The position numbers and the translations under genes are program-made. 64,000 bases of DNA from Alloalcanivorax marinus. Its GTDB lineage: Bacteria > Pseudomonadota > Gammaproteobacteria > Pseudomonadales > Alcanivoracaceae. Positions 50,157-64,000 of the stretch are shown in pieces. The stretch's first letter is position 1. Each line of letters begins with the position of its first letter. Under the pieces are notes generated by a model. It was not told the origin of the DNA and did no database searches. It saw nothing but the letters and a program-made list of their open reading frames with translations. The stretch covers positions 62,001-126,000 of the forward strand of contig NZ_JADDOL010000002.1 of the NCBI RefSeq assembly GCF_016906305.1. Reading direction: 5' to 3'.

Positions 50157-50371
50157 GTCTGCCTCCTGACCACCATGATTGATCATTAAACATACAGCCG
50201 TGATGTGACCATATCAAGTAGTCACACCAACATCAGCGTCGCTGCGGTGGATGTTCGTATCGTCCCCCACCGGTGTGGCGTAGGGTCCGAAACATCGAGG
50301 TTCTATGGCGCTTTTTAAGCCACCCGTTCGACCGAAAATTCGGATCCGAGCGGCCTGTCACGCGAAGTATC
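50157..50371. other. Toxin-antitoxin promoter and array-1 trailer
   Basis: 215 bases between the antitoxin and the last repeat of array 1. Expected to hold the antitoxin promoter (AT-rich near 50190-50220, including TGATCATTAAACATA). No further repeat copy is found to the left of 50372. Confidence 0.5.
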
Positions 50372-51899
50372 TTTCTTAACTGCCTACGCGGCAGCGAACG
50401 TGTGGGGCGCGCAGCCCCACGGTTTCGAGTTTTTCTTAGCTGCCTACGCGGCAGCGAACCCGATCCGTACATTCGGGCCGGCCGCCTTGATTTTCTTAGC
50501 TGCCTACGCGGCAGCGAACGAGGTACTGGCCGGCGGCATGGGCGCCTACGTTTTCTTAGCTGCCTACGCGGCAGCGAACTCCAGGTCGGTTTCCTCGATG
50601 GCTCTCCGCATTTTCTTAGCTGCCTACGCGGCAGCGAACGCGGCCGTCTCGGAATGGGTGCCCCGGTACGCTTTCTTAGCTGCCTACGCGGCAGCGAACC
50701 TTGCCCACGAACTGCCCGACCTGGGCGCACTTTTCTTAGCTGCCTACGCGGCAGCGAACGGGCCACCGGTCGGCTCCACGGTCACGTCGTGTTTCTTAGC
50801 TGCCTACGCGGCAGCGAACCTACAGAACGCCGACTTGGGCGTGATTTTGCTTTTCTTAGCTGCCTACGCGGCAGCGAACGAATTGCAGGGGCGTGTCCAG
50901 GCCCATTTCCATTTCTTAGCTGCCTACGCGGCAGCGAACCAGCCGGGCGAGCGATACCTGACCCGCTTTGTTTTCTTAGCTGCCTACGCGGCAGCGAACC
51001 GAATGATGACGATCCTGACATGGGTCATGCTTTTCTTAGCTGCCTACGCGGCAGCGAACGCAGACCGGCCAGACCCAGGAGCGCACCGAGTTTTCTTAGC
51101 TGCCTACGCGGCAGCGAACAGGAGGTGGTGCGCACCACCTTGGGCCACGAGTTTCTTAGCTGCCTACGCGGCAGCGAACACGGTGCCAATCGCAGCGGCG
51201 GCGAGCCCAACTTTCTTAGCTGCCTACGCGGCAGCGAACGTCTTGCGGGTCGCTGACGCCCTTCCCTTCACTTTCTTAGCTGCCTACGCGGCAGCGAACG
51301 CAGGGATCCCCATCCTGCAGGCGCTGGAGCATTTCTTAGCTGCCTACGCGGCAGCGAACTTGCCCGCCGGCCATCATTGACCCGGCAAACATTTCTTAGC
51401 TGCCTACGCGGCAGCGAACGTCGCCTTCACCGCCCGGCTCATTTTCGTGACTTTCTTAGCTGCCTACGCGGCAGCGAACTCATAGGTGCGGCATGCCTGG
51501 GCTGTGTCGGTTTTCTTAGCTGCCTACGCGGCAGCGAACAACGATCTCGTTTGGTCGCTGGAGCAGACGCATTTCTTAGCTGCCTACGCGGCAGCGAACG
51601 GTCTCCGCTTCCTGTTCGGTCTCGGATTCCTTTTCTTAGCTGCCTACGCGGCAGCGAACGCCCCGGGCGTCGATCTCCTGTTTCGCCTCTTTTTCTTAGC
51701 TGCCTACGCGGCAGCGAACCCGCCGCACTACTGAACTATGCGGACGACGAATTTCTTAGCTGCCTACGCGGCAGCGAACTTCCGCTCCTTGAGCTTTTCG
51801 ATAATCAGGTATTTCTTAGCTGCCTACGCGGCAGCGAACCTGACCCAGTAGGGCCGGGGTGCCGCGATCAGTTTCTTAGCTGCCTACGCGGCAGCGAAC
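50372..51899 (-). CRISPR. Type I-F CRISPR array 1: 26 repeats, 25 spacers
   Basis: 28-base repeats every 60 bases exactly, so all 25 spacers are 32 bases. On the transcribed (minus) strand the repeat starts GTTC, has stem GCTGCC / GGCAGC around loop GCGTA and ends in handle CTAAGAAA, the type I-F form. All repeats look identical except the left-most (50372-50399), which has one change (first base of the handle, C to T). That marks the left end as the old, leader-distal end; the leader is at the right next to cas6f. No two spacers look alike. Confidence 0.98.
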
Positions 51900-52029
51900 T
51901 AGAGGTTAGTCTCAGTAACCTATTGTTTATTCAGTAGAAAGCAGAATAACACCCACTCCCACCCTTTTTTCAGGGTGGGAGATAAGTGTTTGATTAACAA
52001 GGTTTACTATAAATCCCGAGCAGAAAGGG
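51900..52029 (-). promoter_or_regulatory. Leader of CRISPR array 1 with IHF site
   Basis: 130 AT-rich bases between the cas6f stop and the first repeat. On the minus strand AATCAAACACTTA (51995-51983) matches the IHF consensus WATCAANNNNTTR perfectly, 83 bases from the repeat. A 10-base-pair hairpin CTCCCACCCT / AGGGTGGGAG lies at 51956-51981, and TATAGT upstream (near 52010) could be a -10 box. IHF bends the leader for spacer insertion in type I-E and I-F systems. Confidence 0.75.
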
Positions 52030-52593
52030 TCAGAACCAGGGGACCGTTGCTGTCGGACTCAGTCCGTAGGCGCTGAAAAGACCAGGAACAGCATCATCGC
52101 GCAGAGGGCCGTGTTCAACGAATAAAGCAAAGCGCTGCTCGGTAGTCGCGCTTCGCAGGGTGACAAACGGCAGGGACACCGCCTTTTCAATACTGTCGGG
52201 CAGCTGACGCCGGGCCTCTTCCTCGGAAACATTGTGGCGCCGACAATAACGTCGCCGCAGACGCGCCACATTGGTTTTCGGCTGTACACGACGCACCACG
52301 CGGTGCCGGGCGTCGTATGGCACGGGTTGTATGCTGCCCACGTGCAGATGGTCCGTCATACCACCAAGCCAGGTTCCACCCATCAGTTCCGCCAGACGAT
52401 CCTCGGTGCCATGGAGGCGCATTCTGGCCCCCAATGTGCGCGGCTTATGGCCGTGGGCGGGAAAGCTCACGCCGACATCCTCCACGCCGCCTCGAGCCAG
52501 CGCACGGTGTAACTTGCTGTATAGGGCGTCCAGCAGCACCTGCCGGCTGAACTCCGGATCTGGACGCACACTCATCTCCAAATACGCGTCCAT
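52030..52593 (-). CDS. cas6f: Cas6f (Csy4) crRNA-processing endonuclease
   Basis: 187 residues. Begins MDAYLEMSVRPDPEFSRQ; His29 in YSKLHRAL lines up with the catalytic His29 of Pseudomonas aeruginosa Csy4. An Arg-rich helix (VARLRRRYCRRHN) matches the part that sits in the hairpin major groove, and the C-terminal SLPFVTLRSATTEQRF and GLFSAYGLSP are family motifs. It cuts pre-crRNA at the base of the repeat hairpin and stays bound to the crRNA 3' end. Starts 3 bases after csy3. Confidence 0.96.
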   Translation of the reverse strand: MDAYLEMSVRPDPEFSRQVLLDALYSKLHRALARGGVEDVGVSFPAHGHKPRTLGARMRLHGTEDRLAELMGGTWLGGMTDHLHVGSIQPVPYDARHRVVRRVQPKTNVARLRRRYCRRHNVSEEEARRQLPDSIEKAVSLPFVTLRSATTEQRFALFVEHGPLRDDAVPGLFSAYGLSPTATVPWF

Positions 52594-52596
52594 ACC

Positions 52597-53628
52597 TCAC
52601 CCCGCATCCCCGAATACGCCACCACGAATCAGCGTCGCCATCACAAAATGCTGGTCAGTCTGGCTGGGGGTCTTATCCTTGAGGATCCAGTTATCCAGTA
52701 GTGAATAGAAATCCGCCTTTTGCTTCGGTTGCCGGTACGCCTTGCCCTGAGTGGTGACAGAGCCATAGGGCTCCACGGCAATCGGCCCCAAATCCTGGCC
52801 ACCTTCCGAGGGGTACCAGGTGTCAATGGTGCGCAGGGCATTACCCAGTTTTTGTGAGTGGATGCCGGCCACGTTGCCAATCTGATAGAGCGTTTTGCTC
52901 TTGTCACCACGGCCTCGCTCCAAGATCAGCTCTTGGGAGGGGAAAACCTCCTGCCCTGCCCCGACACGGGCAAAAGCCATCACCTCCAGCAAAGTGTGTT
53001 GTTCACCGGCCAAGCCGGAGGCAATACATTGTGCAAGTGCCTCAAGCCCGGTGCGTGACGCATCGGTGGGCTCGAAATCACGCAGCGAAAGAGCCAGTCC
53101 GTCGAAGGTCCACGAATCGGTGACCTGGCCTTCGCGGATACGACGTACCCGGACTTCCACCTGCTCGGCTCCAACGCGGTTGCGCCACAGAAAACGACCG
53201 TTGGCCAGGTTGTAGGCGTAGCGCTGCGCCAACGTGGCGAACCCCTGATTGGCCACATAGCCTTTGACCGTGGTCAGCAACTTATCCTGGTAATCCGCAT
53301 TGTTGCAGGCGGACGGCATCCCCGCTCCCCCCAATACCCGTAGGGTAAAACGAACCATCAAGGTGTCCGAGGTACTGGGTAATGCCGCCACATCAACGGT
53401 TTGGAGGTTGGGGTTTTCAATCTGCGCGTCGAGCTTGGCAGGGTCTTGATCCTTGGTCTTAAGGCGATTGGAAATGGTGCCGCGCACCGATTTCTCGCGC
53501 ACTTCAACGGCGGGCCAGCTCTCGAAATCGTCACGATGCCCCCACTGTCCGGCAAAGAACAGCGCATCGGATGGGTCCAGCTTGCGCTCGAAGGCGAGCA
53601 CGGAGGCGGTTTTAAGGGCGGTAGCCAT
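52597..53628 (-). CDS. csy3: Cas7f (Csy3), backbone subunit
   Basis: 343 residues, start with AAGGAG 7 bases upstream. Starts [25 protein letters not shown]; family motifs include [15 protein letters not shown] and [18 protein letters not shown]. Six copies form the filament along the spacer in the Csy (Cascade) complex. Between csy2 and cas6f as in all I-F1 operons. Confidence 0.96.
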
Positions 53629-53658
53629 GGCGAAACTCCTTCTGTTTTGTTTTATCCG

Positions 53659-54654
53659 TTAAGAGGGTTGGTAGTCATTGCGAAGACGATATAGTCCGGC
53701 ATCCGTGTCGCTGTGGGCATACCAGAGCATGTCTTGGGCACGGTTGAGGCGATGAGGACTGATCCATTGCCCCACAGAGTACAGGCCTTCCACAAAGCGG
53801 AAGGGCGTGACCGCATCGCGGGCATTAGCGACACTGCCCGCCTCATAACACGGCGAAAGCGCCCCGTAGCCCACGGGAATCGGCACCACCCAGCCCGGTG
53901 ACTTTCGGACCTGCCAGCTGAAGCTCGGTCGGTCCTGTTCATTACTGTCGGCGCCAGCTTTCTTCCTATCACTGGCTTCCGGAGCGTAGTGCAGGGTAAG
54001 CCGAGAACAATCCAGCCAGGCGTCCAGCTCCGTAGCGGCCGGGTCTTCCTTTCGCAGTTCGGCAAGGCTCTGAGCAAGCAGATCGTCACGGCCCACCAGC
54101 ACAAAGCCGGGCAACCATCCTCGACGCAAATTCAGGAACTGCTTATGCCGCTCCCCGGGGTCCTCATCCAGAACCACCAGTTGCGGCCGCTGCCAGGACT
54201 TGCGCTGGCCCGGAAGCGCCGGCATCACACTCCCTCCTGCCAGGCGCATACCGGACACTATGCGGGCCAGCTCCGCCGCGACTTCCTCGCGGCGTCCAGG
54301 GTCGGCCGAGCAGAGCGCGCCCTCGGCGCCCAGTACCAAAGTGACGTCCAAATGCACCCGACCTTCCTCCACAATGGCGGCCGTGGAGCCATCCTTACCC
54401 ACCGGATTGCGAGTGAGCAGGAAACGCCGGGTAAAGCCCGTCTGATTAACCTGAGCATCGAAACCGTGGCAAATCACGCCGACCCCAGTGAAAATCAGGT
54501 CGAGACCGGCGGTCGGCAGCTTGCGCTCCAAAGCCTGCATGGCCCCCACGAAGGCGCTCATGGCGGGAAAGCCCCAGGTCATCTGGCTGGAAATGGCATT
54601 GGCATTCTGAATACGCAGGTGCGGCAGCACCAACAAAGCTTTTGGCTCAGACAT
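53659..54654 (-). CDS. csy2: Cas5f (Csy2)
   Basis: 331 residues from the ATG at 54654 (8-base overlap with csy1); a longer frame is open but is csy1 shadow. Begins MSEPKALLVLPHLRIQNANA; typical Csy2 features are the AISSQMTWGFPAM segment and IPVGYGALSPCYEAG near the C-terminus. It caps the crRNA 5' handle together with Csy1. Confidence 0.95.
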   Translation of the reverse strand: MSEPKALLVLPHLRIQNANAISSQMTWGFPAMSAFVGAMQALERKLPTAGLDLIFTGVGVICHGFDAQVNQTGFTRRFLLTRNPVGKDGSTAAIVEEGRVHLDVTLVLGAEGALCSADPGRREEVAAELARIVSGMRLAGGSVMPALPGQRKSWQRPQLVVLDEDPGERHKQFLNLRRGWLPGFVLVGRDDLLAQSLAELRKEDPAATELDAWLDCSRLTLHYAPEASDRKKAGADSNEQDRPSFSWQVRKSPGWVVPIPVGYGALSPCYEAGSVANARDAVTPFRFVEGLYSVGQWISPHRLNRAQDMLWYAHSDTDAGLYRLRNDYQPS

Positions 54655-55948
54655 GGGGCAACACCTCCTGCAGGGCATCCAGCTTAGCCTTGAGTGCGCC
54701 TGTCCATTGCGCGTGTTCCGGGTCACCCATCGGTAGCCGCCGGCTTAGCTCCCGGTTTAACCAATTGGCAAAGCGGTGACGAACTTGATCTGGCCAGTCT
54801 TCGCTTTCGCGCTTTGCCTGGAAAACGGCATCGTAATCAGCCCGGTGCGGGTCCAGCCAAAGCGTCTCGGCTTCGTTCAAGCGGCATTGGGAATCGGCGC
54901 TCCAACCAGGCTCGAGCACACTCAGCTCGCCGGCAAACAGCACCAGCTCATCAATAAGGGCATCCACGTATCCATCCCGCCGTTTGCGTGTCGCCACGAC
55001 CGGGTCCGGCCCCTGCTCAAGGAACCGGGCCAGTTGGGATATCAACCATCGCACCTCCCGGCGGCGCCCAAAGCGAGGGAACACGGAATCAGTGCGCAAT
55101 GGCGCCGGGACCTCAGGGCTTTCCCATATCGGCGGCAAGGAAGCGAGCAAATAGTTGTTGCCTGCGCGTTCGCTGTTGAGCTGAGAGATGTTCTGAGGTT
55201 TGGTGCCGCCCAGCTTTTGCACCGCCAGGTTCGGGTAATCCCGGTACCCCCAATCACAAGGCTTGCTCTCGCGCCGTGCTTTGCGCGCTTCCTTGGCGGC
55301 TTCACCAAAGCGATCCTCATTGATGGCCAGAAACACCCGGTGTGCCAGGGAGGTGGCGTACAACGGCGCGAGCAGATGGAAGTGGTCATCACGGGTCGGG
55401 TCTTCGCCCACAAGCCAATACACTTGCTTGGCCTTGGTATGGCTCGCGGCACCGGTACGCTCGGCCACCAGGCCGGCAAAAGCCTCCACCCATGCCCGAG
55501 CCTGGTCCGCGTCGTCGCTCAGCGCCTGCCGCAACTCAGCGTCATCCTCAAGCACCCGCTCCAGAACCGACCGGCCCTCATGTTCTACCTTAAGGAACTT
55601 ATAGACATCCAGAGCGGCGGCATTGCCAACCACATCCGCCTGAAAATCAGAGCCCATTACTCCACTGCTTACCAACCCCGGATGCACCAAATCCCCGGGC
55701 TCCACATAGAGGTTTGAACCCTTGGCGTCCGGGTGGATCGGTTTCAGTGAATGGGTAACAAGCTGGATCTGGCTGGCACGGGAGGCGGCGCTTTCAACCC
55801 AGTGCTCAAACTGAAACTGAGCACGCAGCGCTTCCCGCTTGGGGTCGTCGTCGGCGAGTTTTTCGAGCTTGCCCTGCAGGCGCTCGCTCAGAAACTGCTC
55901 CATAGCCGCACGCAAGCCGCGTACTGACGGGTCATTCAGGATTTCCAT
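54647..55948 (-). CDS. csy1: Cas8f (Csy1), large subunit
   Basis: 433 residues, start preceded by AGAAGGAG. Family features: VTHSLKPIHPDAKGSN, HPGLVSSGVMGSDFQADVVGNAAALDVYKFL (quoted in parts: SSGVMGSDF and DVVGNAAALDVYKFL), KPQNISQLNSERAG. In the I-F complex this subunit reads the CC protospacer-adjacent motif and with Csy2 holds the handle. Starts 28 bases after the cas2-3 stop. Confidence 0.95.
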   Translation of the reverse strand: MEILNDPSVRGLRAAMEQFLSERLQGKLEKLADDDPKREALRAQFQFEHWVESAASRASQIQLVTHSLKPIHPDAKGSNLYVEPGDLVHPGLVSSGVMGSDFQADVVGNAAALDVYKFLKVEHEGRSVLERVLEDDAELRQALSDDADQARAWVEAFAGLVAERTGAASHTKAKQVYWLVGEDPTRDDHFHLLAPLYATSLAHRVFLAINEDRFGEAAKEARKARRESKPCDWGYRDYPNLAVQKLGGTKPQNISQLNSERAGNNYLLASLPPIWESPEVPAPLRTDSVFPRFGRRREVRWLISQLARFLEQGPDPVVATRKRRDGYVDALIDELVLFAGELSVLEPGWSADSQCRLNEAETLWLDPHRADYDAVFQAKRESEDWPDQVRHRFANWLNRELSRRLPMGDPEHAQWTGALKAKLDALQEVLPHV

Positions 55949-55976
55949 ATTATTGGTCTCCTTCTATTTATATTTT

Positions 55977-58900
55977 TCATCGCTGTCTTACAAACCCCAG
56001 GGCGGGATGAAAACGCCACCCGTGCTCACTGTCCGGCAGAGTGACAGTCCCAAAACGTCGGGCACAGCTCTCCAGCTCCTGCCCCAGATCGTCGGCTAAC
56101 GCCGCCAGAGCTTCGAGATAGTCGGTATCGCCCCAGGGGCGGATGCGCGGCGAAGCGACCGCCTCATCCGGAATGCGGTGGTGCAAGCTGGTGTCCACAT
56201 CCACATAAAGGGGCAGGCGTCGCCCCGGTTCTTTACGAATCTGCTGAAGCCCGTATTGTTCGCCGCCCTCGTCCGGCATCAGCACCAGGTCAACGCGCTT
56301 GGTATTGTCGTTTCTGAAAGGCTGTTGCTGCGGCAGGACCGCGGTCAGCGAAGCACGAGGCAGCTCGTGCCAGGTATAAGCACCAAGACGAGGCGCCGAG
56401 GCGGACTGGCGCCGGATTCGCTCACGGCGGCTAAGGTTGCCGACATCCGCTTCTTCCTCGGGCGCCGACAACGGCGCCACCATGCATTCCTTCAGGCGCG
56501 CGTGCTCCAGGTCCACCAGGTTCTCACGGGGGCGGAGGCTGCGCCGGACGAGGATGCGGGGTCGGGCGTCGATCACCTCACGCTCTTCAGCACGCAACAA
56601 TTGCTCAAGACGGTGATTACTCAGTAACCAGTCTCCGGGCCCTTCGAAGCCCGGCCGGCAAAAGGCGGGGTCCCCCGGGCTCGTCAGGTGACGGATATTG
56701 GTGTCCAGTAACACCAGATTGGTTGCGCTACAGCCGCCCTCGCGGTGACGACGCACGCGGCCCGCCAGTTGAATCATGGACCGCATGGAGGAAGGTTCCA
56801 CTATAGCCCAGTCGTAATCGTGGTCTCGCCCAACCTCGGTGACCGGCGAGCCCAAAACCAGGAATATCTGGTTCTGCTCCGGGTGCGCATCCAAAAGTTT
56901 ACGGATGTCGGGCAGCTGAAACACCGCCAATGGATCCCTGCGGTTCAGGGCCTGGTCCAACCGCGCTTCGATGGCGGACCGGATCAACAGGGGGTATTGC
57001 GAGTGATAAACGCAAAGATGGATGCACTGCCCCTGCTCCGCTCCCTGCCGGTAGAGCGCTAGCGCCACCTCCACCAATGGTTCGATATTAGCCATGCGGA
57101 CCAAACCGAAGCTCACTCGCTTTGCACTCGTCGGGTCCAGAGTATGGTGGTTGGCGTGCAGCTCTTTGGCATGGACCAGAATACGGTTAGCGAACGTCTC
57201 AACTACCTCCTCGCGACGGCTGCCGGACACCGCAAGAGGCGCCAAGCGTGCCCGGCGCCGAACCGGCGCCTTGCCAAGCCTCGCCGCGCGCCGTTCAGCG
57301 AACTCCTGGTGGGACGAAACGAACAGCTCCCTATCCGGACAATCCTGATGCGCCTGACCGTGCTCATCGAACCAGGCGCAGCAGATATCAAGCGCCGCAC
57401 CGGGTTCTCCCCGATTACGCTGGTAATGGGATCGGCCGTCCCGATAAGCCTCGTACAGCCCCTGAACCAAGGACGGCGGCAAGGTAGCGGACGACAAAAG
57501 CACGCGCGAGCCGAGCAGACCCGCCCAGTGCACCAGGCGAGTCAGCGCGGGCAGGTCGTCCAGATCGAAGTCGTCCGGTTCATCAAGGACAAGGTCACCA
57601 CTCATCAAGCGCAGCATGGGGGCGATCTGGCGGCCGCCGCGCTGGCTCTCCGTCGCCGGTGTCAGATGGTCAACGGTGCAGACCAGTATCGGCGCGGCGA
57701 GCAGCGCTTTTACCATGGGGTCATGGGCCACCCGGCCAAGCAGGGGATGGTTATCCAGATTTCCGTCAAAGCGGACATAGCTGTCCTCGGGCAACAGGCT
57801 TTGCACGGAAGCAGAACCACTGCGCTCTGCCAGCTCCTGGTGATATTCAAACAAGGTCCGGCTGGCGCTACCCCCCACTCGAACGGCCAGGTCGTCCTCA
57901 CTCAGACCCAGCGTTTCCCGGTAGGCCTTGCCGGTTTGCAAGGTGAGCGTGCGCAATCCAAGAGCAATGGAAAAGCGAGCGCCGGCCTCCGGGTCCGCCA
58001 GGGCGTAAAGAATGCGCGCATTGGCCAATGTTTTTCCGCAACCAGTAGACGCCATGTTGATTCCAAAAAAGCCGTGCCGACGGGCCCGTTCACGCAGCCC
58101 CTCCGCCAGATCATAGGCGCGGTCTTGCCAACGGAAACGGGGGTCGGCGCTGCGCCTTCGGAACGCTTGGTGGCGGGCAAGACGCGGCAAATGCCGCTCC
58201 ATATTGGGTAACGCCCGGCTCACCGCCCGGGAATGCTTCTCCACCCCAAGCAGGTGCTCGTCCAGAGGCTGATTCGGCTCACCGGTCTCACGCAGAGTGT
58301 TGGCCAATAACGGGTAGCCCGCTTGGCCACGGACACGATGGGCGGGTTCACTGAGACTGGAGTAATAATGATCCGAGGTCATCAGCACCAAACGAGCAAG
58401 GTGCATGACGTAGGGATTATCCAACGGAGCCGTCATGTCGCAGCACTGCCGCAGTTGCTTTGCCAAGCCGGCGGCCCGCGACCGCCATAGCTCCGTAGTC
58501 ACGGGCAAGCCGTGCGGGAACTGCCAATAGGGCCGGATCTGCACCGCGTCCTGACTGTCGCAGACTTCGTTCCAGGCGGCGGTAATGATGCCTGGTAAGC
58601 CTGATAACTGGCGCGCCTGAAAACCAGACACCCTCGCGCCCAGCCGGGGAGCACCTCCCCCTACAGACCGATCCCCCGGCATTACCGGCAGACGGTGGTG
58701 GGTAACGATCAGCCAGCCAACGGCCGCGGCCAGCGGTGGCAGATGAGCGAACGGCGTGGAGTCACGGGCATCAAGGCCGTCCTTGTTGAGACGGTTCAGC
58801 CACGCCGCGTCGTCAGCCGCGGCCGGGTTTTCAAGACGGGCCAGCCAGGTGGCGTCCTCATCCTCCCCGACAAAAGCCTCGAACAAGCGCAGGGAGACCC

Positions 58901-59351
58901 ATTCGTGCCGATAAAGATTACGCTCCGGTTTCGCACCGGGTTTAAGTTTACGCTGGAAACTGGCACAGGCTTTGCCAAGGTCGTGCATGAGCGCCGCCAG
59001 CGCGGCTAGCAGGGTGATGTACTCACCGGTGTGCCAGTCATTCTCATCGCCCCGCCGCAAAATGTCTCGACGGGTGGTGTTGGTGGGCACCGCGCCCTGA
59101 GCGTTGAACCTGCTGGCGTCACCTACAATCCACAGCAACTCGCTATGATCCCGACCGCGAATCCAATGACAAGACACAGCGGTATTCTTTCGGGCAGTCT
59201 TGCGTAACAGGCGACGCAATGTATCCAGACCCTGCTTGGTGATTGGCGTCTGCCAGGTACGCTCGCCCCTGCGCTCAGCAAATTGGTCGAGAATGCGCCG
59301 GGTTTCCTTTAATGCTCTCTTGTCACACTGTGAGACCAGCAGTACGTTCAT
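55977..59351 (-). CDS. cas3f: Cas2-Cas3 fusion (type I-F nuclease-helicase)
   Basis: 1124 residues from the ATG at 59351, in an ATGA overlap with cas1; 30 further in-frame codons upstream lie inside cas1. Residues 1-~95 are Cas2-like (MNVLLVSQCDKRALKETRR). HD nuclease motif at H123-D124 (AALMHDLGKACASF), His149 (YRHEW). Helicase: INMASTGCGKTLANARIL (Walker A), GDLVLDEPDDFDL (DExx), and IQLAGRVRRHREGG (motif VI). Degrades targeted DNA and, with Cas1, acquires spacers. Key residues look intact. Confidence 0.97.
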   Translation of the reverse strand: MNVLLVSQCDKRALKETRRILDQFAERRGERTWQTPITKQGLDTLRRLLRKTARKNTAVSCHWIRGRDHSELLWIVGDASRFNAQGAVPTNTTRRDILRRGDENDWHTGEYITLLAALAALMHDLGKACASFQRKLKPGAKPERNLYRHEWVSLRLFEAFVGEDEDATWLARLENPAAADDAAWLNRLNKDGLDARDSTPFAHLPPLAAAVGWLIVTHHRLPVMPGDRSVGGGAPRLGARVSGFQARQLSGLPGIITAAWNEVCDSQDAVQIRPYWQFPHGLPVTTELWRSRAAGLAKQLRQCCDMTAPLDNPYVMHLARLVLMTSDHYYSSLSEPAHRVRGQAGYPLLANTLRETGEPNQPLDEHLLGVEKHSRAVSRALPNMERHLPRLARHQAFRRRSADPRFRWQDRAYDLAEGLRERARRHGFFGINMASTGCGKTLANARILYALADPEAGARFSIALGLRTLTLQTGKAYRETLGLSEDDLAVRVGGSASRTLFEYHQELAERSGSASVQSLLPEDSYVRFDGNLDNHPLLGRVAHDPMVKALLAAPILVCTVDHLTPATESQRGGRQIAPMLRLMSGDLVLDEPDDFDLDDLPALTRLVHWAGLLGSRVLLSSATLPPSLVQGLYEAYRDGRSHYQRNRGEPGAALDICCAWFDEHGQAHQDCPDRELFVSSHQEFAERRAARLGKAPVRRRARLAPLAVSGSRREEVVETFANRILVHAKELHANHHTLDPTSAKRVSFGLVRMANIEPLVEVALALYRQGAEQGQCIHLCVYHSQYPLLIRSAIEARLDQALNRRDPLAVFQLPDIRKLLDAHPEQNQIFLVLGSPVTEVGRDHDYDWAIVEPSSMRSMIQLAGRVRRHREGGCSATNLVLLDTNIRHLTSPGDPAFCRPGFEGPGDWLLSNHRLEQLLRAEEREVIDARPRILVRRSLRPRENLVDLEHARLKECMVAPLSAPEEEADVGNLSRRERIRRQSASAPRLGAYTWHELPRASLTAVLPQQQPFRNDNTKRVDLVLMPDEGGEQYGLQQIRKEPGRRLPLYVDVDTSLHHRIPDEAVASPRIRPWGDTDYLEALAALADDLGQELESCARRFGTVTLPDSEHGWRFHPALGFVRQR

Positions 59352-60325
59352 GGCGTATCGCTCGCCTGACGCATGGCTACACTCTTGACGGTGTCGATCA
59401 TGAAATCCAGTGCTTCCGTACGGGCCAAGGACTCGATACATGCTTGCCGAAAAGCCTGTTCATCGTCACCCCGCATGGCACTCAGGAAGGCCTGAGGCAG
59501 AATGACCGCATCCTTAATCAAATCCGCGACATCGAATACCAGCCCTCCCCGGCGCGTTTTGCCGTGTAATATGGCCAAGCCGTGGGGCAGGCCCAGCACC
59601 CAAGTGGCGGTGGCCGCCAACCCATAGGCCAGATAATTACCGTGGTCCAGAAAACGATTGGCCGGATCCGTCCCCGTGCCTCTTTTTGCACGCCGAAAAG
59701 ACCCGTAATCAACCGCATCACAAGCCAGCTTGAACAAACGTTTCGTGAGACGTGCCTCCACGGTCAGCAATTCCATGGTGGTCGTACTGGTCTCGATATC
59801 CTGGCCACCCTGCTCGAGCGCCGATATCAGCGCGGCCTCGATCACCTGGAAACCGGCTTCATGCAATGATCTTGAGCCCAGCCAATGCTCACGGATACGC
59901 CCCAACCTGGCATACTGGAAATACTTGGCGGCAGCCAGCCTCTTTACGTCATCAAACCAGAAATGCACCCAGGCCTGCAGGTATTCAGTGGGTCGATATT
60001 CGCTTTGCGGGCTGAACCAGGCCACCTCTATATCCACTTCATTGGCGCTGAACAAAGGCGTCCCTCCGCCCCCGCAAAAACCCACCAACACCCCCGCCTT
60101 CGCCATTTCCCGCATGGCGGCCTGCGTTACCGAGGTCCCCGTTCCAAGCAACACGGTGGTGGTATTGGCGATAGGGATATTCCAGTAAAGGGATTGCCGC
60201 CCCTGGTCGGTGACATACTCCACGCGGCCACCGTTGACCAACAGCCGGCAGTGCTGCAAGTAATACACGTTGGCTCGCTTGGAATGCAGAATCGTCTTGA
60301 GATCCGCTGGCGACAAGTCTTCCAT
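59348..60325 (-). CDS. cas1: Cas1 integrase, type I-F
   Basis: 325 residues from the ATG at 60325, which has GGAGG 7 bases upstream (an ATG 8 codons earlier would place the ribosome site inside the gene). Begins MEDLSPADLKTILHSKRANV. Metal-site residues expected for Cas1 are present: Glu in LLTVEARLTKRLF, His in GLAILHGKTRRGG and Asp in LVFDVADLIKDAV. Inserts new spacers together with the Cas2 part of Cas2-3, to which it is translationally coupled. Confidence 0.97.
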   Translation of the reverse strand: MEDLSPADLKTILHSKRANVYYLQHCRLLVNGGRVEYVTDQGRQSLYWNIPIANTTTVLLGTGTSVTQAAMREMAKAGVLVGFCGGGGTPLFSANEVDIEVAWFSPQSEYRPTEYLQAWVHFWFDDVKRLAAAKYFQYARLGRIREHWLGSRSLHEAGFQVIEAALISALEQGGQDIETSTTTMELLTVEARLTKRLFKLACDAVDYGSFRRAKRGTGTDPANRFLDHGNYLAYGLAATATWVLGLPHGLAILHGKTRRGGLVFDVADLIKDAVILPQAFLSAMRGDDEQAFRQACIESLARTEALDFMIDTVKSVAMRQASDTP

Positions 60326-60402
60326 AAACGCCCCTCCAAAAGGCGGCACCCTTGGTCATGCTCACCCGGTTGTAACACGGGGGCTGCCCGGGGAATGCCA
60401 CC

Positions 60403-60420
60403 ACTGATCTTACGATCAGT
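60403..60420. promoter_or_regulatory. Dyad ACTGATC-TTAC-GATCAGT upstream of cas1
   Basis: Perfect 7-base arms with a 4-base centre, in the 135-base gap between the WYL regulator stop and cas1. On the minus strand TAAGAT overlaps the dyad and could be a -10 box for cas1. It is not followed by a T-run on the minus strand, so it is more likely an operator than a terminator. A dimeric regulator such as the adjacent WYL protein is a natural candidate. Confidence 0.5.
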
Positions 60421-60460
60421 ATTTTGCTCCCTATCCACCGGCTTAGCGGTGCCCTGTTGG

Positions 60461-61423
60461 CTAGCGGTAAACCGCCAGCGCAGCCGCCAGACGCTTCCGA
60501 ACACTCAGGCGAAGCGCCTCCGGCGCCAACACCTCCGCGTCCGGGCCATGGCGCAATACCTCCATGGTCAGTTCCGTCGGGTCTGAATACGGTACCCAAA
60601 GGTGGTACCCATCATCCCGCCACTCTCCATGCTGCTTTGCGTGCCAGTGTTCGTCTGCCACCCACCGTGCCGCCCACGGGGAAAAGCGCAGATGAGCCTG
60701 GGCCGACGGCGCGCCGGAAAAAAGGCCGAAACTACCCTCCATAAAACGGTCCAGACGGTCGGCAGGCATCGCCCGAGCCTCACCCTGCTTCGGCTCAAGT
60801 TCAATAATGCGATCCAGGGAAAAAAGCCGCAGACCACCCGCTTTTTCACAATCGGCCAGCAGATACCAATTATGGCGGTAATGCAAAAGCCTCTGCGGAT
60901 GCACCAGCCGCTCGCCACCATGGTCGCGACTGCGTGGCTGATAGCGGATACGCAGGCACCGACCCGCCAGAGTGGCATCGGCAACACAAGTAAAAACGTG
61001 GTCGGGGACCTTTCGTTGTTGCGTTGACTGCAACCTGACCTTATCACTCAAACTTGCCGCCTGAGTTCCGGCGTCACCCAGCAAGCCCTGAATCCTCCGG
61101 CGTATCGGTGCAAGGCGATGGCTCATCAAACCAGGGTGGACGGCTTCCAGAAGTTGCTCACAAGCCAGCAAAGCATATAACTCACTGGCGTTCATCCAGA
61201 AGCCGGGTAATTCAAACTGTGGGGCATCAGGGTCATAATGATGGCCGTTCCGCTCGCGGTCGTAGACGATGGGCGCGCCGAAAAAGTCACGCAAATACTG
61301 AAAATCCTGGGTGACCGTATTCCGTGTTACCCCCAGCTCTTCGGTAAAGCGCCGCATCGGTACCGGGCAGCGAGCATGGCGCAACAGACCATGAATGCGA
61401 TAAAAACGCTCAAGGCGGGTCAC
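60461..61423 (-). CDS. WYL-domain transcriptional regulator next to cas1
   Basis: 320 residues from a GTG at 61423 with AGGGA 6 bases upstream. N-terminal winged helix-turn-helix (LERFYRIHGLLRHAR, RRFTEELGVTRNTVTQDFQYL), then a WYL domain: LRIRYQPRSRDHGGERLVHP, and the signature in LHYRHNWYLLADCEKAGG, then a C-terminal WCX-like region. WYL proteins bind nucleotide-like or nucleic-acid ligands and often control defence islands (for example BrxR, CapW). Same strand as and 135 bases before cas1, so likely a cas regulator. The ligand is unknown. Confidence 0.9.
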   Translation of the reverse strand: MTRLERFYRIHGLLRHARCPVPMRRFTEELGVTRNTVTQDFQYLRDFFGAPIVYDRERNGHHYDPDAPQFELPGFWMNASELYALLACEQLLEAVHPGLMSHRLAPIRRRIQGLLGDAGTQAASLSDKVRLQSTQQRKVPDHVFTCVADATLAGRCLRIRYQPRSRDHGGERLVHPQRLLHYRHNWYLLADCEKAGGLRLFSLDRIIELEPKQGEARAMPADRLDRFMEGSFGLFSGAPSAQAHLRFSPWAARWVADEHWHAKQHGEWRDDGYHLWVPYSDPTELTMEVLRHGPDAEVLAPEALRLSVRKRLAAALAVYR

Positions 61424-61441
61424 GACATATCCCTAGGTGTT

Positions 61442-61484
61442 TTATTATTCACCGAAGACTATATCTTTGTGACGAGTATCACAA
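61442..61484 (-). promoter_or_regulatory. CRP/Vfr-type site TTGTGA-N6-TCACAA and promoter of the WYL regulator
   Basis: Perfect palindrome at 61467-61484, matching the CRP core TGTGA-N6-TCACA. With TAATAA (61447-61442) as -10, the site would be centred near -41, the class II activating position; with TATAGT (61463-61458) as -10 it would overlap the -35 and repress. The regulator GTG is at 61423. The remaining 61485-61693 contains no gene. Confidence 0.65.
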
Positions 61485-61693
61485 TTCCATTTTCACAACG
61501 CCCCCACTGAGGCTGCGCCAATATTGCCTTCAATCATGGCCTGAATAGGGAGAGACCTATCTATACTACGTTTTATTTACTTCCCTCCGCGCCGGCCGAC
61601 GCTGCCAATTCCTGCACTGATAGAGCCCTTAAAATAGGCACCTTTCCGCTTTTGAGCTTTTGGCAGCATAATTGATGATGCTTTCGCTCCTAG

Positions 61694-64000
61694 CTTGACG
61701 GCTGCCTATATGGCAGCAATCCGTTGGCTCCCGCTCCATTCCGGATCCCCGGCTTTCTTAGCTGCCTATGCGGCAGCAAACAGCGGATTTGTCGATTTCT
61801 AAGTTTCCGAAATTTTCTTAGCTGCCTATGCGGCAGCAAACAGCACCTCCTGGTCCTCGATCTGGCCCTTGTCTTTCTTAGCTGCCTATGCGGCAGCAAA
61901 CCCCTGGGGTGAAGGCCGCCGGCTGCGGCCGGTTTTCTTAGCTGCCTATGCGGCAGCAAACGCTACGGTACCGAATTGCGCTGCTACGACAACTTTCTTA
62001 GCTGCCTATGCGGCAGCAAACCCGGGGCCTCAACAGTTACGCTATTGCATATTTTTCTTAGCTGCCTATGCGGCAGCAAACCAGAGCCAACCCCAGGCGG
62101 GCTAACCGCCAGCTTTCTTAGCTGCCTATGCGGCAGCAAACGGTGTCCCGGTCAACGACGACGAGGAGTGCGATTTCTTAGCTGCCTATGCGGCAGCAAA
62201 CGCTGCTCGCGCAGGATCCCTACCGGGCCCGCTTTTCTTAGCTGCCTATGCGGCAGCAAACCGCTCAACGCGGATGGCAGCCCGGGCGTCCCATTTCTTA
62301 GCTGCCTATGCGGCAGCAAACTCCTGGTCCTCGAACAGGAACTCTTCGATGCCTTTCTTAGCTGCCTATGCGGCAGCAAACGGCGCTCATGGGCATTGAT
62401 TGTGAGTGTGCCCTTTCTTAGCTGCCTATGCGGCAGCAAACACGGACTGGTAACGGATTCCGAGCGCGTCGGCTTTCTTAGCTGCCTATGCGGCAGCAAA
62501 CTCCAGGAGACCATGACGGCGGTGGCTGAGATTTTTCTTAGCTGCCTATGCGGCAGCAAACGTGGACCCCACCACGGGCGCCGGCGTGGCGGTGTTTCTT
62601 AGCTGCCTATGCGGCAGCAAACTGGGCTGGGTCCGGCACGATCACGGCGCCCACTTTCTTAGCTGCCTATGCGGCAGCAAACCGCACCTCCGCCTCCGGC
62701 TCCGCGCTCCGCTTTTTCTTAGCTGCCTATGCGGCAGCAAACATGGTGGTGTTATCGTACCCCGCGAACAAAGGTTTCTTAGCTGCCTATGCGGCAGCAA
62801 ACGTGCGGGTGCCGTTGCGCAGCTCGACCACGCTTTTCTTAGCTGCCTATGCGGCAGCAAACGGCTATGACTGGACGCCGCTGCACTATCGGCTTTTCTT
62901 AGCTGCCTATGCGGCAGCAAACTTCAGCGCCGTATGCTCGGCGCCCTCGTCGTCTTTCTTAGCTGCCTATGCGGCAGCAAACATTGCGGCGACCACGGCG
63001 AGAACGACGGCGTATTTCTTAGCTGCCTATGCGGCAGCAAACATCTTCCAGTGCGCCCAGGTCGGGCATGTGGTTTTCTTAGCTGCCTATGCGGCAGCAA
63101 ACTGCAGGATTCCGCGCCCGTTCCTAAGGATGATTTTCTTAGCTGCCTATGCGGCAGCAAACCGCCACCAGTGCATCGTGGTCGAGCGCGTGGATTTCTT
63201 AGCTGCCTATGCGGCAGCAAACGGGGTTATTCGTCAGGTCCTTTGCCAGTGCTGTTTCTTAGCTGCCTATGCGGCAGCAAACACAACCGCCACTCTGGCC
63301 GCCAAGTTCCCGCTTTTCTTAGCTGCCTATGCGGCAGCAAACGCGACTTGGCGCTATCTGTGCCGTATCTCGATTTTCTTAGCTGCCTATGCGGCAGCAA
63401 ACGCCCGGGCCGATCCGGCACTGATCCAGCCAGATTTCTTAGCTGCCTATGCGGCAGCAAACACACTCACTGAATCCTCACGGAGTGGCCGACATTTCTT
63501 AGCTGCCTATGCGGCAGCAAACAATCTGATGGCGCGCATCCGTACGATTAAACCTTTCTTAGCTGCCTATGCGGCAGCAAACGTCGTAGCCCTCTGCTGT
63601 CTCCGCCGGCCAGTCTTTCTTAGCTGCCTATGCGGCAGCAAACTGGCGGCGCAGGAATGAGATCGACTCGGGCCTTTTCTTAGCTGCCTATGCGGCAGCA
63701 AACAACGGTTTTGACGACCTGCCGCACTTTGAGCTTTTCTTAGCTGCCTATGCGGCAGCAAACGAAACGGGCTTCCATGTCGTCGTAGTCCTCGTTTTCT
63801 TAGCTGCCTATGCGGCAGCAAACTCGGAGTAGACCCGATTTTCCGCGCGCCACGATTTCTTAGCTGCCTATGCGGCAGCAAACGCGCGGAGCTTCTTGTG
63901 GACGCCGCCGCTGGATTTCTTAGCTGCCTATGCGGCAGCAAACTCGTTCGGCCTGGGCCCGGGCTTCTTCCTTGCTTTCTTAGCTGCCTATGCGGCAGCA
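61694..64000 (-). CRISPR. Type I-F CRISPR array 2: 39 repeats (first degenerate, last cut by window), 38 spacers
   Basis: Repeat on the transcribed (minus) strand starts GTTT, stem GCTGCC / GGCAGC, loop GCATA, handle CTAAGAAA; it differs from array 1 at two positions. Regular repeats start at 61754 and recur every 60 bases, with two 61-base steps (62534 to 62595 and 63555 to 63616), so two spacers are 33 bases and the rest 32. A decayed repeat at 61694-61721 (20 of 28 bases kept) is the leader-distal end. The last repeat starts at 63976 and leaves the window, so the leader and newest spacers are outside. Confidence 0.98.

Follow-up and report, generated by a model that had tools for sequence, protein, structure and literature searches.

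Except in a few models, it is poorly understood when bacteria take on the cost of CRISPR immunity. In the window, i.e. the whole 64,000-nt stretch of Alloalcanivorax marinus DNA analyzed here, a gene for a WYL-domain regulator is embedded in a type I-F CRISPR-Cas locus, which raised the question of whether, through which DNA site, and in which direction such a regulator would govern the cas genes.

The WYL gene and its locus

On the minus strand, the order of the locus was array 2, the WYL gene, cas1f, cas2-3, csy1, csy2, csy3, csy4, and array 1, with the following coordinates.

52030 to 52593, minus strand: csy4 (cas6f)
52597 to 53628, minus strand: csy3 (cas7f)
53659 to 54726, minus strand: csy2 (cas5f); the true start may be internal to the ORF
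54647 to 55948, minus strand: csy1 (cas8f)
55977 to 59351, minus strand: cas2-3, start placed at the Met of MNVLLVSQCD (ORF-list start, 59441)
59348 to 60325, minus strand: cas1f (TIGR03637, 505.5 bits), ATG start preferred to the GTG at 60349 of the ORF list
60461 to 61423, minus strand: WYL regulator gene, 320 aa, with wHTH, three-helix linker, WYL, and WCX (ORF list, Pfam, AlphaFold2 model)
61700 to 64000 and on to about 64020, presumably minus strand, as taken from the usual orientation of I-F repeats: array 2, with 28-nt repeats at a 60-nt period, a degenerate final repeat at 61700, and its leader outside the window

The ORFs and profile matches agreed with the original prediction that the WYL gene is co-directional with cas1 and lies between array 2 and the cas genes. 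The likeliest cas1 start was the ATG at 60325, served by the ribosome-binding site GGAGGGG, with which the gap between WYL and cas1 is exactly 135 nt. Two long I-F arrays flank the locus (window positions 50273-51937 and 61700-64000). Array 2 runs toward the WYL gene and its degenerate repeat ends 277 nt from the WYL start, so that transcripts of the array may read through into WYL.

The 320-aa protein was found to combine the N-terminal HTH, WYL, and WCX parts of an HTH-WYL-WCX transcription factor. Pfam detected WYL at 67.4 bits (cut-off 21.8) and WCX at 58.3 bits (cut-off 23.9), while HTH_11 at residues 9-60 reached 22.3 bits, just under its cut-off of 25; in the AlphaFold2 model (mean pLDDT 75.2, pTM 0.39), the wHTH comprised residues 1-63. 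The PADLOC model PDLC01457 matched the protein at 119.7 bits, and no NCBIfam family did so at E ≤ 0.001. The best sequence match was PafBC (E 1e-18). With the model as query, Foldseek placed DriD first (E 1.3e-14), PafBC next, and BrxR and CapW after them, and in a second structural aligner BrxR, CapW, DriD, and PafBC were tied at Z 12-14 for this model of pTM 0.39; the fold therefore does not tell activators and repressors apart.

Upstream of the WYL start lies a second element of possible regulatory relevance.

61468 to 61483, no strand assigned: CRP-like palindrome TGTGA-N6-TCACA, matching 10 of 10 consensus bases

This CRP-like box was present with 9 or 10 of the 10 bases in all ten Alcanivoracaceae loci, whatever their cas type, and was not found upstream of WYL in Marinobacter or the other groups examined. 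The genome contains nine perfect TGTGA-N6-TCACA sites versus none of the reversed pattern, and it encodes a CRP equivalog (367 bits; cut-off 266). With a consensus site, its conservation, and an encoded CRP, the WYL promoter has the features of a CRP-regulated promoter, the site itself being predicted. In relatives other than G025, G030, and G035, a conserved TAnAGT follows the box by 6 nt; if this is the -10, the box falls near -26, on the -35/-10 spacer, a position from which CRP may repress WYL. An alternative promoter, GTCACA-N18-AATAAT with AATAAT at 61449-61444, would have class II geometry with the box possibly at -41.5. As judged from these sequences, the WYL gene may have its own promoter with a CRP-like second layer of control in Alcanivoracaceae, of either sign. 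In the I-F locus of Pectobacterium atrosepticum, according to part of PMC4499141, CRP at TGTGA-N6-CCAAA, located at -41.5 of cas1, activates cas; a CRP box is near the I-F locus in both cases, but here it precedes WYL instead of cas1 and may overlap the -35/-10 spacer.

The block before the cas operons

The elements predicted in the gap between WYL and cas1 were as follows.

60403 to 60420, minus strand: perfect 7+4+7 dyad with palindromic arms ACTG-N10-CAGT, a candidate WYL binding site
60369 to 60420, minus strand: 52-nt putative operator/promoter block before cas1, ranked first among 127,898 window positions by matrices whose training sets excluded the window
60369 to 60377, minus strand: predicted extended -10-like element TGtTACAAC, a weak TATAAT match, aligned with TGnTAGGGT of relatives

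The perfect dyad proposed for the 135-nt gap was found as ACTGATC-TTAC-GATCAGT; the proposed overlap with a -10 box did not hold, the conserved -10-like element lying about 25 nt downstream. By our own arithmetic, the chance of a perfect 7-nt dyad in a 135-nt gap is about 0.007 with a 4-nt loop and about 0.08 with any loop of 0-10 nt. By this estimate the dyad alone is unimpressive; what appears impressive on comparison of related loci is its conservation.

The gaps between WYL and the first cas gene aligned as an ungapped 52-nt block in both the Marinobacter/Halomonas and the Alcanivoracaceae groups, with the pattern ACTG-N10-CAGT-GGTGC-N7-GGGGCAGT-N8-TAnnnT, of which the dyad is the first third. 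The window block was the most diverged of its group, carrying CCCC stretches where the others have GGGG and a weak -10 (TACAAC). Exact ACTG-N10-CAGT occurred in 6 of 9 Alcanivoracaceae gaps, 12 of 17 gaps of the Marinobacter/Halomonas group, and none of 9 in a more distant group, whereas equal base frequencies would give 0.06 across the gap positions as a whole; many of these sites are related by descent. It was not in the gaps of L053, L055, L056, L051, and L069, and manual anchoring was used to align L051, L053, L055, and L056, where exact arms were absent. In Marinobacter, the ACTG arm overlaps the last WYL codons, and coding constraint may therefore help to conserve it there.

Position weight matrices carried the block across cas subtypes. 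The site ranked first in its own locus in 13 of 14 held-out I-E/I-F loci with a matrix trained on eight I-C sites, in 13 of 13 held-out loci with one trained on nine I-E sites, and in 16 of 17 with one trained on five I-F sites, some loci being near-copies and the counts hence not independent. The miss in both failing tests was L056, whose hand-set alignment seems off by about one base; the near-duplicate sites L049 and L047 (and L126/G005 once) were excluded from some training sets. The window site ranked first of 127,898 positions at 8.8 bits with the I-C matrix, 10.4 with the I-E matrix, and 13.0 with the matrix of all sites but its own, and in a separate test it scored 12.4 versus 4.8 for the next-best position. 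When a 16-site matrix of the Marinobacter/Halomonas group was run over 2.9 million positions, Alcanivoracaceae I-F/I-E sites were on top outside the training set (17.0, 14.3, and 13.8; best unrelated position, 10.5), and the window site scored only -7.0. The array 2 leader, considered as another WYL target, was rejected, as the operator matrix gave no match near it.

The block was also retained where WYL and the cas genes are further apart. In L046 (8986-9700) and L047, a PIN-domain toxin and a Phd/YefM-like antitoxin are inserted divergently between WYL and cas3 of an I-E locus. Although this pair separates WYL from cas3, the block stands directly before cas3, and overall the site was kept at the cas promoter with 0.8 to 1.8 kb of other DNA between it and WYL. 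More distant WYL-linked loci carry a counterpart, ACTGGATAwAtnn-CCAGGACAGGTTTTG-nCC-N11-TAnnnT, before I-C, I-E, and I-F operons, with CCAGGACAGGTTTTG preceded by ACTGG-N8-CCAG; its core gave 11 matches in 3.6 million positions, which stem from seven distinct sites, all before cas operons. In L191, L198, and L199, which had not been inspected before the pattern was set, the distance from the counterpart to the cas operon downstream was 120-270 nt and that to WYL 1.7-1.8 kb; the block thus belongs to the cas promoter and not to the WYL 3' end. Recognition-helix residues varied between groups with differing operators (RNTVTxDF, SRATVxRII, and SEKTVKRAI). Neither operator version was carried by two I-F loci, L188 (G248) and G046, the gap of the latter containing a GGCTCA..TGAGCC palindrome. 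Alignment of the cas1 upstream regions thus placed the dyad, as had been anticipated, within a conserved candidate operator directly before the cas operon, and the linkage of this operator to WYL-associated cas operons is well supported by the comparison.

The dyad could also be read as an RNA hairpin, either a terminator on the plus strand or a structured leader, with no protein site at all. It has a 7-bp stem, a 4-nt loop, and a subsequent ATTTTG on the plus strand, and a scan listed it as terminator-like, two such sites being found versus 1.4 expected by shuffling. Against this, only the outer ACTG/CAGT was conserved, whereas the five inner pairs per site were unpaired in most of 18 sites; there was no U-run on the coding strand, conservation ran 34 nt past the hairpin to the -10, and Rfam gave no match in 51900-61760. 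This reading is hardly credible, and it was discarded because the inner pairs are not kept.

Linkage of the WYL lineage to cas genes and exchange of cas modules

Linkage to I-F loci elsewhere, on which the original prediction depended, was borne out: cas-linked WYL genes occurred in other genomes, I-F loci included. In all 20 loci with at least 53% WYL identity (L046-L065), the cas operon followed directly or, in L046/L047, after the PIN/Phd pair. Among 80 homolog loci, whose subtype labels came from PADLOC and Pfam and were extended by clustering, 30 had cas genes next to WYL (3 I-F, 13 I-E, and 14 I-C), and in L071 I-C genes lay about 4 kb beyond it. Most of the other 49 were Lysobacterales and other homologs of 40-48% identity, without cas genes and beside a patatin, HIRAN, or SEC-C gene; a few of the 49 stop at contig edges. 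Across 390 sampled genomes of the order, a WYL homolog at E ≤ 1e-40 was present in 33, and all 33 were examined. Same-strand cas genes lay within about 2.1 kb downstream of 21 of them (11 I-F, 6 I-C, 3 I-E, and 1 II-C), including all nine homologs with at least 49% identity; the remaining 12 had no cas gene nearby, in the sense that tblastn with reference proteins of I-C, I-E, I-F, and II-C gave no match within the 5 to 14 kb retrieved. These data show the recurrent cas-operon linkage expected of CRISPR-associated WYL regulators.

A controller dedicated to I-F, as originally proposed, was not what emerged. WYL genes of this lineage also stand before I-C, I-E, and II-C cas genes, and of the 63 order genomes with Cas1f over the cut-off only 12 had WYL upstream (the 11 above plus G046, where a contig end truncates WYL). 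The regulator is not restricted to I-F; one lineage serves I-C, I-E, I-F, and II-C. In G194, the WYL gene has an internal stop. L128/L129 (G030 and G025) have, at the same chromosomal position as the window's I-F genes, WYL followed by Cas9 and a type II Cas1, a class 2 system.

These same counts bear on whether WYL simply rides along with CRISPR, the block being read by another host factor, or acts elsewhere, e.g. as a general DNA-damage regulator. The 12 of 33 order-sample homologs without cas genes nearby, the patatin-like gene adjoining the Lysobacterales homologs, and the 51 of 63 I-F loci lacking such a WYL upstream would all fit. On the other hand, the 52-nt block before cas1 was missing in all five WYL-less I-F loci examined, cas genes followed WYL in every locus of the L046-L065 set, operator and recognition helix change together between groups, and the window matrix found no second comparable site in the window. 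We consider this alternative quite improbable.

The association between regulator and cas genes was also analyzed through a tree of 56 WYL proteins, which included 20 chosen, rather than all, non-cas-linked homologs; G035, which lies at a contig edge, was excluded from both the tree and the gap counts. The tree tracked hosts (Alcanivoracaceae, Marinobacter/Halomonas, and Gallionella) and not cas subtypes, its well-supported branches forcing at least 11 label changes for I-E, at least 7 for I-C, and at least 4 for I-F. The window WYL was closest to two I-E-linked WYLs (77%). The window Cas1, Cas3, and Csy1 were closest to those of the WYL-less I-F locus G020 (85, 76, and 69%), compared with 78-79, 65-66, and 57-62% for WYL-linked I-F loci of its own genus. 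In addition, genes that flank the window locus, among them those for a fadL-type porin and an acyl-CoA dehydrogenase, are also found next to I-F, I-E, and II-C loci within the family, and one Marinobacter set of flanking genes recurs beside I-C, I-E, and I-F loci. On this comparative evidence, cas modules appear to be exchanged behind the WYL regulator, often at one chromosomal site. At the same site in L132 (G006), a 65-residue WYL remnant of 83% identity was found without cas genes, which marks a decayed or deleted CRISPR locus.

Direction of control and known WYL systems

The comparisons above established gene linkage, conservation of the putative operator, its independence of cas subtype, and its retention at the cas promoter; binding by WYL, activation, and the ligand are what we infer. 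Probably, a dimeric wHTH-WYL-WCX factor binds the conserved block and activates the downstream cas operon on a nucleic-acid signal, in a DriD/PafBC-like manner. The WYL dimer would bind ACTG-N10-CAGT and the adjoining GGTGC-N7-GGGGCAGT, roughly -58 to -21 of the cas1 promoter, a nucleic-acid ligand (best guess, single-stranded DNA) would occupy the WYL/WCX groove, and ligand-bound WYL would recruit RNA polymerase to a promoter with an extended -10-like element and no recognizable -35. Exposure of ssDNA by an attacking phage or plasmid, or by DNA damage, would then increase cas expression, and the factor would be dedicated to whichever cas operon is downstream.

With TAnnnT taken as the -10, the arms occupy roughly -58 to -41 and GGGGCAGT roughly -28 to -21, with GGTGC around -40; the cas1 promoter block contains no TTGACA-like -35. 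The fixed spacing from block to -10 and the lack of such a -35 thus suggest an activator geometry over a poor -35, as in DriD and, differently, PafBC. An exact match of GGGGCAGT-N8-TA to the PafBC -26 (RecA-NDp) consensus was rejected, as the spacing seems off by one, and the resemblance is a hint rather than evidence. A sigma-54 promoter was considered as well and rejected, GG-N10-GC giving no fit in the conserved block on checking by eye.

The same regulator and operator might instead repress: WYL lying across the -35 would block the cas promoter and be released by a nucleic-acid or nucleotide signal, like BrxR, CapW, and Sll7009. In favor of this, the block extends over the -35 and the spacer, the second structural aligner leaves BrxR and CapW level with DriD and PafBC, and PMC4012209 and PMC9122601 describe Sll7009 as a repressor of a type I-D locus and BrxR as a repressor that binds inverted repeats. 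However, this cas promoter has no good -35 to block and would need help to fire, and its palindrome is set at a constant distance upstream of -40, as activator sites more commonly are. Furthermore, the palindrome in WYL's own promoter, where BrxR and CapW have an inverted repeat, matches the CRP consensus and is unlike the cas operator, and the usual autorepression loop was not seen with the cas operator site. With the site covering the -35 position and the region upstream of it, with no TTGACA-like -35 in the promoter, and with DriD as the closest structural match (the repressors BrxR and CapW being possible counterparts too), the repression suggested by the original prediction is not favored, and we regard it as somewhat unlikely.

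Activation would place the protein beside DriD of Caulobacter and PafBC of mycobacteria, ssDNA-triggered WYL activators with the same domain order. The DriD site is a 20-bp pseudopalindrome overlying the -35 of promoters whose elements are poor (PMC12340889, in part), and PafBC reads a -26 motif (PMC11804915, in part). The same portion of PMC11804915 gives R181, Y196, R204, R208, R211, and R214 as the ssDNA-binding residues of PafB, four of which are conserved by alignment in the WYL protein (R181, Y196, R208, and R214 as R172, Y187, R199, and R205), while R204 and R211 are replaced by A195 and S202. The conserved residues do not prove an ssDNA ligand, since they are common to many WYL domains. 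DriD and PafBC differ from the present protein in that they control DNA-damage genes rather than CRISPR, share only about 20-25% identity with it, and have the two ssDNA-contact arginines that it lacks; PafBC is moreover a heterodimer.

BrxR (BREX) and CapW (CBASS) are likewise WYL regulators that head defense loci and bind inverted repeats (PMC9122601, in part); they are described as repressors acting on their own promoter region, whereas the conserved site here is at the cas promoter behind the regulator gene. Sll7009, the type I-D repressor of Synechocystis, is likewise a WYL factor tied to a type I CRISPR locus (partial text of PMC4012209 and PMC9122601); it belongs to another subtype and phylum and is likened here by description and not by sequence, the conserved operator and the four-subtype lineage being features of the present case. 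Control of CRISPR by WYL proteins, a prediction made in 2014, is known from type I-D, where it has been demonstrated (PMC4012209, in part). In the open-licence PMC text covered, which included parts of PMC8616872 and PMC6967390, we found no description of a WYL regulator for I-C, I-E, I-F, or II-C, of this lineage, its operator, or its sharing among subtypes, or of module exchange. The PADLOC WYL models "CAS-I...CAS-VI; associated_signaling" catalog WYL as a CRISPR accessory for all types, but hold neither the operator nor the mechanism or module exchange found here.

The same gene and site before other CRISPR types in related bacteria suggest one common switch for interchangeable immune systems. 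As a tentative extension, for which we would give somewhat less than even chances, the WYL sensor-activator and its cognate cas promoter may form a portable cassette that stays at a fixed site while at least four subtypes (I-C, I-E, I-F, and II-C) are swapped behind it, a nucleic-acid signal of infection or DNA damage, CRP-gated in one family, switching on the resident CRISPR. Landing behind a resident switch would explain immediate local control of newly acquired cas modules, and ssDNA activation of the sensor would tie CRISPR induction to phage replication or DNA damage in these bacteria, which are marine and hydrocarbon-degrading. A WYL sensor with a defined operator common to several subtypes makes the question of the signal directly testable with one promoter, one protein, and candidate ligands.

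Sister WYL homologs (L066-L068, L071/L072/L084, and those of Lysobacterales) lie beside a HIRAN-domain, SEC-C motif, or patatin-like gene, possibly other defense genes under related regulators. In the genome of the window itself, two further adjacent WYL genes (L153 and L154, contig C54:25035-26412) were found in a PafB/PafC-like arrangement.
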